Assembly (NCBI GenBank): GCA_944369075.1
Contig: CALVXK010000013.1
Location: 1-33,846, forward strand
From: an uncultured Bacilli bacterium
Lineage (GTDB): Bacteria; Bacillota_I; Bacilli_A; RFN20; CAG-826
Reading direction: 5' to 3'
Length of the DNA stretch: 33,846 nt
Position numbers and translations under genes: made by a program. The notes beneath the pieces were generated by a model. The model had not been told where the DNA came from. It did no database searches and saw nothing but the letters and a program-made list of their open reading frames with translations. Below, in pieces: positions 10,846-32,640 of this stretch. Position 1 is the first letter of the stretch; every line of letters begins with the position of its first letter.

Positions 10846-11076
10846 TTATTTTATTATTTTCCAAACACCAGTCTTATTAGAGCCATTACGAATAATATAC
10901 CCTTTTTCTTGCAATAACTTTAGATGGCGTTCTATAGTTCTTTTACTTTTGCTAATAATTGAAGATAACTTATCTGCAGTTAGAGAAGGATTCTTTATTA
11001 GTTCGTTTAACATAATCTTATCAACATCTTTTATATCTTCGTTTATACCGTCATTTATACCGATAAATATAATAAT
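10846..11076 (-). pseudogene. Remnant of an AlbA/RecG-C-like protein: C-terminal winged helix only
   Basis: About 70 codons translate to a segment starting with GINDGINEDI, a linker typical of Schlafen-AlbA / RecG-C-like proteins, followed by a winged helix (KNPSLTADKLSSIISKSKRT...RHLKLLQEKGYI) and a GVWKIIK ending. This matches the layout of the C terminus of the intact AlbA protein at 30835-32136 (SERTIQSVLKKL...YWIVL). The frame is closed upstream by a TAG and has no suitable start with a ribosome binding site, and the AlbA and ATPase-like parts are missing. It is therefore called a decayed fragment. It lies just downstream of a tRNA gene and its terminator. Confidence 0.75.
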
Positions 11077-11124: not shown

Positions 11125-11200
11125 TGGTGATCCGCCGGAGACTCGAACTCCGGACCCACTGATTAAGAGTCAGTTGCTCTACCAACTGAGCTAGCGGACC
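11125..11200 (-). tRNA. tRNA-Lys (anticodon CTT)
   Basis: A 76-nt cloverleaf on the minus strand. The acceptor stem GGTCCGC pairs with GCGGATC (one G-U pair), followed by discriminator A and an encoded CCA. The anticodon arm is ACTGA / TCAGT with loop CTCTTAA, giving anticodon CTT, which reads AAG (Lys). The D-arm GCTCAGTTGGTAGAGC and T-loop TTCGAGTC are canonical. Confidence 0.97.
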
Positions 11201-28485: not shown

Positions 28486-29166
28486 TTAATAGTATTTACC
28501 ATGATCTGGCTCTAGTTTATAAGCATTAAGAACTTGTTTATATAATTTAGGAAACTTTTTATTAATTAAATCAATATCTAAAGGTTTATTAAATTCTGAA
28601 ACATCATTAAAGAAATCTTGATACATAAAAGAATTAAGTGGTTCCCAGTCCTCTCCAAATTTTTCTTCTAATACCTTTTTATCATACTTACTAGAAATAT
28701 ATTCATTTAAAGCATTTTTTGAATCTTCAAAAATCATATACCCTTTTCCTTCTTTTAAAATAGCAGTTTTATTAACAGTTAAAAATTTAGGATCTTTAAA
28801 ATTAATGTTAACAATAAATTCGTAATTTTCACCAGTATCATAAGTATAAACACCAGTGCATAAAATAGTGTTCTTTCCTTCTTTTTTATGGTAAAGACGA
28901 TTTCTTAAGAATTCAATTGTATAATCTTTTTGAAAAACATCAGCTTTTCTATCAGGACGATGTTCAAAGTCGCAAAATCTATTTTCAAAAACATATCTAG
29001 ATGTTTCAAACGTTATTATATGATAAACTGCAGTAAATAAATAAGTAGTTATAACTGCACAAAATTCTTCAATATTTAAATCATCTCTTACTAAAAATCT
29101 ACGATAAAACTCATTTGGATAGTCACTATCATATATAAAAGCTTCATAATATTTATATTTAGCCAT
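28486..29166 (-). CDS. Plasmid pRiA4b ORF-3-like protein
   Basis: A 226-residue soluble protein. The N-terminal half follows the pRiA4b ORF-3 fold pattern: an opening strand, YRRFLVRDDLNIEEFCAVI, an Ile-Ile-Thr-Phe strand, and later YTYDTGENYEFIVNINF in place of the usual Y-x-YDxGDxW-x-H block. A C-terminal helical part follows (SKNALNEYISSKY to the end). Known relatives occur on plasmids and in chromosomal accessory regions; their biochemical role is not established. The start ATG has an AGGAGGAATAT ribosome binding site. It is transcribed alone, between the XRE unit and a pseudogene. Family assignment is from pattern and is moderate, because the usual Trp and His of the central block are missing. 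Confidence 0.65.
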   Translation of the reverse strand: MAKYKYYEAFIYDSDYPNEFYRRFLVRDDLNIEEFCAVITTYLFTAVYHIITFETSRYVFENRFCDFEHRPDRKADVFQKDYTIEFLRNRLYHKKEGKNTILCTGVYTYDTGENYEFIVNINFKDPKFLTVNKTAILKEGKGYMIFEDSKNALNEYISSKYDKKVLEEKFGEDWEPLNSFMYQDFFNDVSEFNKPLDIDLINKKFPKLYKQVLNAYKLEPDHGKYY

Positions 29167-29261
29167 ATATTCCTCCTGATATTTATATCTATATTTAAAA
29201 ATATAATATTGAATTAAGCAATATTATTAAATAAATAGATTGTTTAAATGAAATTAAGTTA

Positions 29262-29306
29262 GGAAAAACTCCGATTTAACGAGTTAAAACTTTGGAAAAA
29301 CTCCGA
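29262..29306 (+). repeat. Tandem GGAAAAACTCCGA repeats upstream of the DUF4143 pseudogene
   Basis: The 13-mer occurs at 29262-29274 and 29294-29306, offset 32 bp (about three helical turns). Just downstream, TTGTAA (29312-29317), a 17-bp spacer and GATAAT (29335-29340) form a candidate promoter for the pseudogene starting at 29351. The repeats therefore sit where an upstream regulator would bind. Confidence 0.65.
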
Positions 29307-29350
29307 AATTTTTGTAAAATTAACGATAATAATCGATAATTTTTAATATT

Positions 29351-30700
29351 ATGCTTAAACGCAACATTTAACAATTACTTGAAAATTATTATAAAGATGA
29401 AAATGCACCAATCTTAATTATTGAGGGAGCTAGTAAAGTCGGTAAAACTTATATTATTAGAGAAAATGCCTCTAAATATTTTAAAAATTATATAGAAATT
29501 GATTTAAAAACTGATTTTAATAAAAAGAAGATTTTCAAGAACATTACATCAAGAGATAAATTTTAAATAGCTGTTACATCGCTTTATGGTGAAAATATAC
29601 TTGGAAATATTAATGATACAATCATCTTTCTTGATAATATGGATGTGTATCCGCATCTAATTCCATTACTAAAACTTCTTAAGACACAGAATAAATATAG
29701 ATTTATTGCAAGTTCTACGTCTCTAAAATTAGAATCGATAAATTCTTTTATTCCAGTTGATTTTACTCAAATAGTAAAAATCTATCCTTTAGATTTTGAA
29801 GAATTTCTTCGGGCGACAAAAAATGCTGGAAACAATGTTATTAATTATTTAAGAGAATGTTTTATTAAAAAAGAGAGCGTTATAGATGCATTGCATCCTA
29901 TAATGATGGAATATTTTAGAAAATATCTATTTACCGGAGGTTCCTCTCAAGCTGTTTTAAGATTTGTAGAAAACATCAACATCACTGAAATGAGGAAAAT
30001 TCAAAAAAGTATCGTTTCTTATTACAAAAAAGATGCAAAAATTAATGACGTAACAAATAAACAAAATTCTAGAAGAATTTATAATCTTTTATCAACTTAC
30101 ATGGAAAGCAAAGTAAGAAGAGTTAAAGTAAAAGATATTGAGAATAACAATAAAGCTGAATTTAACAATTATATAAATGATTCTAATTATTTAATTAATA
30201 ATAAAGTTGTAATTCCATCTTTTGCAATAGATTAACTAGCTTCTTTTTCACTACTTCGATCTATATCAAAAAAGCTCATAAAACTATATTTTAATAATTT
30301 TGGATTATTAACGAATATTCTTTATAAAAATAATGTAGGCACAATACTTTATAGCTAAAGTGATACTATAAAATTAGGTTCTGTTTATGAAACAGTTATA
30401 GCGAATGAACTTAATTCTCATGGACACAATTATTTTAATAGTAAGAAAATTGGCGATGTTGATTTTTTAACAAATGATTATGATTCTCTAAAAATATTTC
30501 CAATTATTATAAAATCTAGGAAAAATAAATCTCGGTTAAAAACTTTATCAAAACTTATTGCTGATAAATCAACGTTAATTGATAAAGGATATATATTCTT
30601 TATGATTAATCCGAAATTAAAAAATAAACAATATTTTTTATATTCCGATATATCTAATTATGTTCTTGTGATAAAAAATAATTTAATTTTTAAAATATGA
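29351..30700 (+). pseudogene. DUF4143/AAA_14-family ATPase with four in-frame stops
   Basis: Read in a single frame from the ATG at 29351 to the TGA at 30698-30700, this encodes a full-length (about 450 codons) orphan ATPase: MLKRNI, then ILIIEGASKVGKTYIIRE (Walker A), TIIFLDNMD (Walker B-like), FIASSTSLKLESI (sensor region), YPLDFEEFL, FTGGSSQAVLRF and, in the C-terminal DUF4143 nuclease-like half, GSVYETVIANELNSHG...IGDVDFLTN. Four TAA codons interrupt it (after MLKRNI, RDKF, FAID and TILYS) without any frameshift. Walker A has Ala-Ser-Lys where the family usually has Gly-Ala-Arg. It is an inactive gene of point-mutation type. The open part 29639-30235 alone would not be functional. Confidence 0.88.
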
Positions 30701-30789
30701 TTGTTATATAGATAATTTTTTCACGTGGAATTAAAAATAGCTGAAAATTATCTTTATTTTTAGTTTTATATTATTTATATCAGATATTT

Positions 30790-30833
30790 TTGCGTGTTAA
30801 AAAATTTCTTATACGCAAAAAGTTACATATTAA
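30790..30833. promoter_or_regulatory. Repeat element at the 3' end of the AlbA gene
   Basis: Half-site TTGCGTGTTAA (30790-30800), then CTTATACGCAA (30808-30818), 4 bp, and TTACATATTAA (30823-30833). The same arrangement, in the same order and with nearly the same spacing, occurs at 32192-32237 upstream of the gene, so the gene is flanked by direct copies of a roughly 45-bp element. Confidence 0.75.
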
Positions 30834-30834
30834 A

Positions 30835-32136
30835 CTAAAGAACTATCCAATAGCCGTCTTTCTTTGATCCAACACGACTTATTTTAGATTCGTCTCTTAA
30901 TTTTTTAAGAACACTTTGAATAGTTCTTTCACTTTTATTAGTTAAAGAACTTAATTCACTTATTGTAATCTCCTTCTTATCAACGATATAAGATAATACT
31001 TGTTGCTCTAAAGGTAGATAATTGAAATTCTTTCTATAAAAAATAAAACTAAAGCCTTGATTCGATTTTTCATAAGATGTTTTTACATTTGCTTTTTTGC
31101 AAGTTGAATAAATTCTTCTAAATCCTGTGGCCCGACTATCAATATCATTAGAATAATATAAAACTTTTGATATTAATGGATTTCGTAAAACTGAACTGAC
31201 ACCATTATAGGCAAAATCTTCTGGTTCATAATTACTTGGAAAATTACCGGGATTAAAAATTACTACCCTTGAAGGAGTGATATAAATTTGATTTTCGATT
31301 CCTTTATCGTATGAAGAGTGGCAAAAACTATTCAAAACTGCTTCTCTTATTGCCTCTAAAGGAATTTCAGGTCTTTCTACTCTCTTAGTTTCGACTATTT
31401 CCGCACTATAATTAATATGGGTTTTAATGAAATCTTGAGCTAATTTAATAAGTTCAAAAATATTTCCTTCATATCTATTTAAATCAATAAAAGAAAGCTT
31501 TTCATCAGTAGCAAAAATGGCCGCTTTTAAAACAGTAGGTTTATTTTTAGAAAAAAGGAATTTTCCTGCATTATTAAGCTTTTTGTTTGTTATTAATCCA
31601 AGCTTTTCTAAAACTTCTTCCTTATTTGTATAAGTTTCATTGATTCTTTTAGCATCGTTTGCTCTTGAAATATATTGTTTTAAAAGATCTTCATCAACAA
31701 CATCTAATGTTTCGTTGCTTTCTTCTTTTTCCCGTAAAAAATTAGTTTTATCATTATTTAAGGCAAATTCTATAATCGATTGATAATCCATTTGTTTGTC
31801 TTCATCGAAACTTCTAATATAAAATTTTCCTTTTGCAGAATAAGGTCTATCCATTCCACTTACTTCAACTTTAATAACTCCTGGTGTATCTTCTAAAACT
31901 GAAATTGAAGGATATATTGCAGGCCTAACATCTTCATAAATTTTTCTAGAAATATCTCTTAAAGTATTCTCGCTATATGGTTGCCCAACTGCATCACCAT
32001 TATTTTTTACACCAAAATAAAGTGTACCTTTCCCACTTTTATTAAGCATAGCTACAATAGAAATTATACCTTCATTTAATTCTGAGGTGCTTTTTTTAAA
32101 TTCTAAAACTTCTGATTCTAAGCCTAAATTCAACAT
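30835..32136 (-). CDS. AlbA_2 / RecG-C-like ATP-binding regulator with winged helix
   Basis: A 433-residue protein with three parts: an N-terminal Schlafen-type AlbA_2 domain (SEVLEFKKSTSEL, then a GTLYFGVKNNGDAVG block), a central region ending in the GHKL-like HATPase_c_4 / RecG-C motif (PLEAIREAVLNSFCHSSY then VVIFNPGNFP), and a C-terminal winged helix (EITISELSSLTNKSERTIQSVLKKL). Proteins of this layout are putative transcriptional regulators or accessory nucleic-acid-binding proteins. The frame extends to 32241, but the ATG at 32136 has an AAAGGA ribosome binding site and the family start. A promoter (TTTACT-17-GATAAT, 32156-32184) lies upstream, and half-sites of the palindrome array abut it, so autoregulation is likely. 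Confidence 0.88.
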   Translation of the reverse strand: MLNLGLESEVLEFKKSTSELNEGIISIVAMLNKSGKGTLYFGVKNNGDAVGQPYSENTLRDISRKIYEDVRPAIYPSISVLEDTPGVIKVEVSGMDRPYSAKGKFYIRSFDEDKQMDYQSIIEFALNNDKTNFLREKEESNETLDVVDEDLLKQYISRANDAKRINETYTNKEEVLEKLGLITNKKLNNAGKFLFSKNKPTVLKAAIFATDEKLSFIDLNRYEGNIFELIKLAQDFIKTHINYSAEIVETKRVERPEIPLEAIREAVLNSFCHSSYDKGIENQIYITPSRVVIFNPGNFPSNYEPEDFAYNGVSSVLRNPLISKVLYYSNDIDSRATGFRRIYSTCKKANVKTSYEKSNQGFSFIFYRKNFNYLPLEQQVLSYIVDKKEITISELSSLTNKSERTIQSVLKKLRDESKISRVGSKKDGYWIVL

Positions 32137-32155
32137 AATATTATCCTTTTTAATA

Positions 32156-32184
32156 ATTATCATATAGTTATAAATTAAAGTAAA
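32156..32184 (-). promoter_or_regulatory. Promoter of the AlbA gene
   Basis: On the minus strand: TTTACT (32179-32184), 17-bp spacer, GATAAT (32156-32161), 19 bp before the ATG. The nearest half-site of the operator array begins 8 bp upstream of the -35 box. Confidence 0.6.
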
Positions 32185-32191
32185 GGACTTT

Positions 32192-32316
32192 TTGCATATT
32201 AAAAATATTTTCTTATACGCAATTTGTTGCGTATTAAACACTACTAATAATGATTTTAATACGCAATATTTTGCATATTAAATCTTTTTTCTTATACGCA
32301 TCAACTTTCGTATAAG
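32192..32316. promoter_or_regulatory. Array of TTGCGTATTAA half-sites upstream of the AlbA gene
   Basis: Seven copies of an 11-bp half-site alternate in orientation: TTGCATATTAA 32192-32202, CTTATACGCAA 32212-32222, TTGCGTATTAA 32227-32237, TTAATACGCAA 32256-32266, TTGCATATTAA 32271-32281, CTTATACGCAT 32291-32301 and a degenerate TTCGTATAAG 32307-32316. Reverse-forward pairs separated by 4-5 bp make three palindromes (centres near 32224, 32268 and 32304). This is the layout of a multi-operator control region. Confidence 0.8.
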
Positions 32317-32341
32317 AAAATATTCTTTAGATGTAGCAAAA

Positions 32342-32640
32342 GTGTTAGGTTATATAAAAGTTAATATTTTAAAAAATCCTTCTATTGATGATTGTTTAAA
32401 ATATATAAATAAGGGTAGAACTTCATTTTTAACTACTTTTAAAAATGAAGTTGGTATAACTTTAGGTAAATATATTACAAAAACTAGGTTAAACGAAACA
32501 AAAAATCTTCTAGATTATACAAATTTATCAATTTTAGATATCTCTTTAATTTATAACTTCTCTTCTCAATCTTATTTTCAAAATGTATTAAAAAAGAGTT
32601 TGGTTTAACTCCTTTATCTTATCGAAATAGAAATAAATAA
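32342..32640 (+). pseudogene. AraC-family regulator remnant, frameshifted
   Basis: Only the C-terminal DNA-binding half of an AraC/XylS regulator remains: FLTTFKNEVGITLGKYITKTRLNETKNLL (first HTH) and LSILDISLIYNFSSQSYFQNVLKK (second HTH). The expected K-EFGLTPLSYR ending is present but in another frame, reached through a one-base shift in the A6 run at about 32590-32595; it then runs to the TAA at 32638-32640. The N-terminal ligand domain is absent, and upstream sequence passes directly into the palindrome array of the AlbA cassette. There is no ribosome binding site before the GTG at 32342. Confidence 0.85.

Follow-up and report, generated by a model that had tools for sequence, protein, structure and literature searches.

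The gene at positions 30835–32136 (minus strand) of the window, the 33 846-nt stretch of DNA analyzed here, is probably a solo, self-regulated gene of the Schlafen type. The arrays of TTGCGTATWAR half-sites at its two ends would be operators of its own wHTH, silencing it from both sides. We read the arrays as the gene's own operators because, in the family, the repeated unit is coupled to the recognition helix, units of one locus match at synonymous codon positions and promoters are frequently covered by arrays.

In the proposed mechanism, the wHTH would recognize TTGCGTATWAR half-sites specifically, oligomers of the protein would occupy the array ahead of the promoter as well as the second array behind the stop codon, and blocking or bridging of both gene ends would keep the gene silent. 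In relatives, 12-bp direct repeats situated before the start, in the linker codons before the wHTH or after the stop would do likewise. DNA binding, repression rather than activation, and looping or bridging of both ends are the steps that we infer.

Domain organization of the gene product

The ORF (coding part 30838–32136, stop codon 30835–30837) encodes a 433-aa protein with an AlbA_2 domain, a histidine-kinase-type ATPase domain and a wHTH; Pfam reported SLFN_AlbA_2 (3.4e-16), HATPase_c_4 (2e-12) and a C-terminal HTH_Mga. The AlbA_2 (Schlafen nuclease-type) domain, residues 7–116 (31789–32118), was located by Pfam, family alignment and structural matches, and the HATPase_c_4 domain (RecG-C-like, with the histidine-kinase CA fold; 31051–31293) by Pfam and structural matches. 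The C-terminal wHTH, presumed reader of the half-sites, covers residues 373–433 (30838–31020) according to the AlphaFold2 model, structural alignment with MarR-type proteins and the HTH_Mga match; its recognition helix, residues 400–413 (NKSERTIQSVLKKL; 30898–30939), was placed by family alignment. All these features lie on the minus strand.

The AlphaFold2 model, made from 43 homologs, has a mean pLDDT of 91 and aligns structurally with 3LMM of Corynebacterium diphtheriae (Z 23.5, 339 residues). Its N-terminal part matches the nuclease-type domains of the SAMD9 tRNase (Z 10.6) and SLFN5 (Z 9.7), residues 190–372 match catalytic domains of histidine kinases and residues 373–433 match MarR-type wHTHs. 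VIA-align coverage falls mainly on residues 190–433, and absence of other families there is uninformative. The preliminary description had called the gene AlbA/RecG-C-like.

Among 100 aligned sequences, E7 is conserved in 96, E12 in 98 and K14 in 96, and the position of D48 holds D or E in 76. From their spacing, we take E7, E12 and K14 to be equivalent to the Schlafen active-site residues of SLFN11/13. The AlbA_2 domain would be expected to have RNase activity.

Downstream of the gene, the stretch 29639–30700 (plus strand) resembles a decayed, fragmented ATPase gene of the AAA/DUF4143 type; its first piece has no Pfam match. Elsewhere in the query genome (G000:C7:58970-62113) two more distant AlbA_2 paralogs, L002 and L003, stand in tandem; one of them has 12-bp linker repeats.

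Half-site arrays at both ends of the gene

The minus-strand location of the gene makes the array at high coordinates the upstream one and the array at 30790 the downstream one. A scan with TTGCGTAT[AT]A[AG], allowing up to two mismatches, detected seven half-sites upstream (consensus TTGCGTATWAR) and three downstream. In plus-strand coordinates, the upstream array consists of F1 (TTGCATATTAA, 32192–32202), R1 (TTGCGTATAAG, 32212–32222), F2 (TTGCGTATTAA, 32227–32237), R2 (TTGCGTATTAA, 32256–32266), F3 (TTGCATATTAA, 32271–32281), R3 (ATGCGTATAAG, 32291–32301) and F4 (TTTCGTATAAG, 32306–32316), where F and R stand for plus and minus orientation; the layout is F-20-R-15-F-29-R-15-F-20-R-15-F. The downstream array, F-18-R-15-F, is made of TTGCGTGTTAA (30790–30800, plus), TTGCGTATAAG (30808–30818, minus) and TTACATATTAA (30823–30833, plus), and begins 1 bp past the stop codon. 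The R-to-F spacing is 15 bp (11 + 4) in four out of four pairs, each with a 4-bp center; the F-to-R spacing is 20 bp in the upstream array versus 18 bp in the downstream one.

Markov shuffles (n = 2000) of the upstream stretch gave on average 0.71 half-sites with a maximum of 5, so the seven observed are beyond chance. For the downstream stretch (mean 0.42, maximum 4) the three half-sites are suggestive by count alone; the downstream array becomes convincing because it shares the reverse-4bp-forward grammar with the upstream array. The scan and the shuffles thereby confirm that at least ten half-sites, seven upstream and three at the 3′ end, follow this grammar. The view of them as one 11-bp sequence occurring ten times has to be relaxed: the exact 11-mer is present only twice and five times at one mismatch, and a two-variant consensus was needed to recover all ten. 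Similarly, arrays do exist at both ends, but the block of ∼45 bp thought to be copied directly is represented by two blocks 65% identical across 54 bp, with a 2-bp offset. The motif lengthened to TTTCTTATACGCAA is confined, at 0–1 mismatch, to the query locus in the whole 1.25-Mb assembly. An intrinsic terminator, sought as an explanation of the downstream array, was not found there.

Arrays upstream of related genes and their promoters

We collected ∼100 relatives from several phyla. A simple core pattern search for the query half-site in the other relatives revealed no array; only L081 and L106, truncated relatives 78% identical to the query over its first 73 residues and likely to be one sequence, share the half-site. 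Many relatives have a different repeated unit of their own ahead of the gene. Direct repeats with a 12-bp period were detected at −150 to −1 in 42 of 115 relatives as compared with 2 of 2446 control stretches. In a non-redundant set, with relatives >90% identical removed and upstream regions of other ORFs of the same loci as controls, the numbers were 27 of 81 and 0 of 250 (Fisher P = 7e-19). Units found among relatives include GTGACATTTACA, GATAAGATAAAT, GATACAATAAAT, GTGCAGAATAAA, GTAGCAAATAAA, GTTCCGGATAAA and TTTGTGCCATTA. Many relatives thus have arrays, but not of the query sequence: the unit is specific to each gene.

The nearest relatives, L016 (59%) and L081, have inverted F/R arrays as in the query, with F-to-F distances of 35–36 bp, i.e. 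3 × 12. Two upstream arrays were observed at L092, L097, L050 and L236, and the orientation of units relative to the gene varies among relatives. At the thresholds used, 36 of the 96 full-length relatives have no 12-bp array. Most other members of a broad HATPase_c_4 sample lack arrays as well, hence the feature is not general to the superfamily. A search of IMG/VR with a single protein gave no match; a search with an alignment gave two, one having an upstream array. Genes downstream of the relatives differ, and no constant partner was found among them.

Several relatives have peculiar surroundings or composition. Three array-bearing ones (L112, L117 and L121) are located directly behind tRNA genes (Leu, Thr and Met, as judged by eye), which suggests tRNA 3′ ends as landing places for array-bearing relatives. 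L195, L196 and L199 are in type I restriction loci; the Mycoplasmopsis arginini relative has an hsdS-annotated gene on one side, hsdR on the other and a tyrosine recombinase in the vicinity, and the Aliarcobacter relative stands between a KAP NTPase gene and hsdR. L075 and L076 have AlbA_2 domains 66% identical to that of the query and arrays resembling those of the clade with AAAGTATAG units, which L075 also resembles in its overall match; they are possible domain chimeras. At L122, a direct repeat of ∼40 bp (GGCAATGGCGATGAAGAAATTAAAATTGTCATAGAAACG-like) occurs on either side of the gene and once more farther downstream.

In relatives, the best −35 hexamer of the sigma-70 type falls within the array at 23 of 50 loci and the best −10 hexamer at 29 of 50, with a coverage expectation of 13.9 per hexamer; in one example, TTGACA-17-TATAAT, a unit spans the spacer and the −10 hexamer. 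Such overlap of array and promoter points to autorepression. The sole candidate promoter of the query gene, TTTACT-17-GATAAT (32156–32184, minus strand), is weak, such sites being no more numerous than in shuffles, and it lies beside F1, not under the array; for this reason we infer repression at the query from its relatives.

The position of the units also bears on control at the RNA level, by which hairpins formed in mRNA by inverted half-sites would be bound or cut by the Schlafen domain. The R-F pairs are self-complementary indeed, and the AlbA_2 domain resembles RNA nucleases. Still, we consider such control highly improbable given that the direct repeats of relatives form no hairpin, unit orientation with respect to the gene is not constant and units occupy the −35/−10 region, ahead of the transcript start.

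Arrays within the gene and behind the stop codon

Full-length genes carry a 12-bp tandem array inside the coding sequence in 29 of 96 cases, and in 28 of these 29 it corresponds to query residues 369–375, the linker before the wHTH; other lags, not multiples, yielded at most eight genes. The query gene has no linker array. The linker array occurs in the absence of an upstream array in distant relatives from Bacteroidota and Campylobacterota and in a faecal phage record. Where a locus has both arrays, the linker unit matches the upstream unit at 11.1 of 12 positions on average. Among 116 residue-matching cases of linker versus upstream units, the synonymous codon is identical in 111 (50.7 expected); therefore it is DNA, and not the peptide alone, that is conserved.

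The linker units encode four-residue repeats such as NDKI and NERV, as they would if the array were a product of slippage, either neutral or serving as a tetrapeptide repeat of the protein, with upstream arrays arising by coincidence. This explanation is scarcely credible, as the same locus carries the unit in non-coding upstream DNA, and the identity at synonymous sites and the coupling to the recognition helix speak against it too. For loci with both upstream and linker arrays, the match of units and synonymous codons refutes it.

Besides the query, the stop codon is immediately followed by the gene's own unit at L095, L103, L105 and L107; a single locus, L236, combines arrays at all three places, upstream, in the linker and downstream. 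Post-stop arrays recur in six lineages, the query included, and at L105 and L107 the post-stop array is a near-identical copy of the upstream one. Of the loci tested, 4 of 72 had post-stop matches of at least three units, against a background of 18 in 3314 windows. The downstream copy of the query is thus a minority trait, uncommon in placement yet recurrent.

The downstream array might instead be a remnant, or belong as operator to a neighboring copy (a lost tandem duplicate), and play no part in control of the gene. Tandem paralogs L002/L003 in the query genome, double upstream arrays at L092, L097, L050 and L236, and the nature of the next gene, an AAA/DUF4143-like ORF in decay that runs in the opposite direction (as read from the sequence, with no Pfam match), agree with this. 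We give it a small chance, as post-stop arrays are known from six lineages, those of L105 and L107 are near-identical to the upstream array and the window contains no second copy of the gene.

According to the preliminary description, a copy behind the stop codon would be superfluous if the repeats served control only. This does not hold: relatives place gene-specific arrays upstream, before the wHTH and/or after the stop. Arrays upstream, in the gene and post-stop fit autoregulation at multiple sites.

Coupling between repeat unit and recognition helix

One clade comprises 18 homologs whose N-terminal parts are 84% identical and whose wHTHs are 59% identical. Within it, the partial correlation between helix and unit, given the N-terminal part, is 0.64 (permutation P = 0.0005), and that between N-terminal part and unit, given the helix, is 0.05. 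For all 41 loci, which are phylogenetically dependent, the helix–unit value is a modest 0.23, and that for the N-terminal part is similar (0.24). The query locus is excluded from the test set. Identity of the whole wHTH as a predictor of the unit gave a partial correlation of only 0.08; the recognition helix predicts better. Helices of the TIYRH type pair with GATAAG units, DGY[IV]RK with GTAGCA and YINKI with GTATAG; [RK]T[IV]QR helices have mostly G(T/G)GACA-type units. Judging by these sequences, the presumed operator tracks the recognition helix at the level of the family. As helix and operator change together, every copy would have a private operator.

Differences between six loci, 90–99% identical elsewhere, cluster in two places, the upstream array and nt 1141–1240, where the helices of the wHTH are encoded; the last 60 nt are mostly alike again. 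In nt 1141–1240 of this hypervariable clade, which has no linker array, nonsynonymous codon changes predominate (in one example, 17 against 3).

Such sharp divergence of wHTH and array in otherwise similar loci could mean that the arrays are chiefly recombination substrates, by which the nuclease/ATPase part or the wHTH is swapped or deleted and specificity diversified, control being secondary. Arrays do border the wHTH codons, either on the 5′ side (linker) or on the 3′ side (post-stop). The window itself contains a lone wHTH preceded by three in-frame 12-bp units, GGTATAAATGAC, GGTATAAACGAA and GATATAAAAGAT (10850–11061, minus strand), just behind a tRNA-Lys gene (11125–11200). It is a fragment of another AlbA_2 gene whose AlbA_2 and ATPase parts are missing, and its nearest full-length relatives have the linker array in equal register; a deletion between upstream and linker arrays is expected to leave such a product. 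We nevertheless find this alternative doubtful. The mostly nonsynonymous changes fit selection as well as import, the hypervariable clade lacks a linker array, and at many loci upstream and linker arrays are an inverted pair incapable of deletion. The orphan is either a remnant of recombination between the two arrays or a result of 5′ decay. The reading of the arrays as operators for the gene's own winged helix is, at the family level, upheld by units that track the recognition helix, overlap promoters and match synonymous codons.

Gene loss and transfer

The gene had also been described as a possible cassette whose flanking repeats serve as ends for excision or insertion. An array stands in direct copy at each end of the gene, as a cassette would have it. 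In genome G002, with flanks of 95–98% nt identity, positions 28711–32522 of the window (3.8 kb) are absent, with ∼64 bp in their place; the edges, 28710 and 32523, fall off the repeats, within ORF 28486–29166 and an AraC-like fragment (32342–32608). In G025, as compared with G013, the gene is gone, both upstream arrays are retained (one of them decaying) and the right edge is ∼130 bp past the stop, where there is no array. Thus, in both testable comparisons indel edges are off the repeat pairs, contrary to the excision proposal. A clean empty site keeping one repeat was found in neither comparison. Solo arrays do remain after some losses of the gene, and arrays with no gene are present at L144, L151 and L152 as well.

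Genomes of different families share 98% identical 272-bp segments (L144 and L154) in which a GTGACAAAACTA array stands alone, the vicinity being free of AlbA_2 genes; the unit is nearly equal to that of M. arginini L195.

Copies 90–95% identical occur across genera and families, and most such pairs share only the segment from about −110 to the stop codon. The gene therefore spreads horizontally in compact form, and such spread needs no repeat-driven excision. Compact sharing and gene-less arrays would be expected of a cassette too; mobility through the repeats is very unlikely, all the same. Pfam identified no recombinase domain among the flanking ORFs tested, most relatives lack a post-stop array, and arrays are located within coding sequences. 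In many relatives, moreover, the upstream and linker arrays are mutually inverted, not direct, and so would not permit excision.

Significance and comparison with known systems

A widespread bacterial family of the Schlafen type, recently linked to phage defense, gains a directly readable regulatory site. As array sequence goes with recognition helix, control becomes testable and a helix-to-operator code is suggested; an operator doubling as linker-coding sequence is a rare case. More speculatively, array and wHTH may form a transferable specificity module: an operator in or right behind the coding sequence would accompany an exchanged wHTH and then be copied to the promoter. If so, all Schlafen copies of a genome would be orthogonal, each a potentially toxic tRNase silenced from both ends until infection releases it. 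In the open-access literature searched, we found nothing relevant on COG2865/PF04326 with repeats or autoregulation, and no copy-specific, self-matched operator arrays lying partly in coding sequence.

In phage immunity groups, matched repressor–operator pairs avoid cross-talk, and LacI has auxiliary operators, with an extra operator at the far end of the gene. The query gene differs in that it is not phage-borne and encodes an ATPase/nuclease-type protein, with arrays of 2–8 units. The 'predicted transcriptional regulators' of COG2865 (RecG-C-like) are represented by 3LMM, which the query matches in sequence (7e-15) as well as in structure; the entry states neither DNA target nor function.

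An architecture of 'Schlafen RNase + minimal histidine kinase + wHTH' was reported beside BREX loci (PMC12839542), and bacterial Schlafens were tied to anti-phage defense (bioRxiv 10.1101/2025.07.24.666596, as described in a citing paper). The query has the same three domains, with C-terminal HATPase and wHTH after AlbA_2 and with conserved E/E/K, and its relatives in M. arginini and Aliarcobacter are in type I restriction loci; the query copy itself has no adjacent BREX or restriction genes. The passages of PMC12839542 on this architecture make no mention of self-matched operator arrays.

AbiEi antitoxins are described as autoregulators acting cooperatively on repeated promoter sites (PMC7319586), and BldC as binding cooperatively to direct repeats in promoters (PMC5859096). 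On these descriptions, the likeness lies in repeated sites within the own or target promoter. In contrast, units vary among copies of the Schlafen family in step with the recognition helix, and the arrays are located in coding sequence and behind the stop codon as well.
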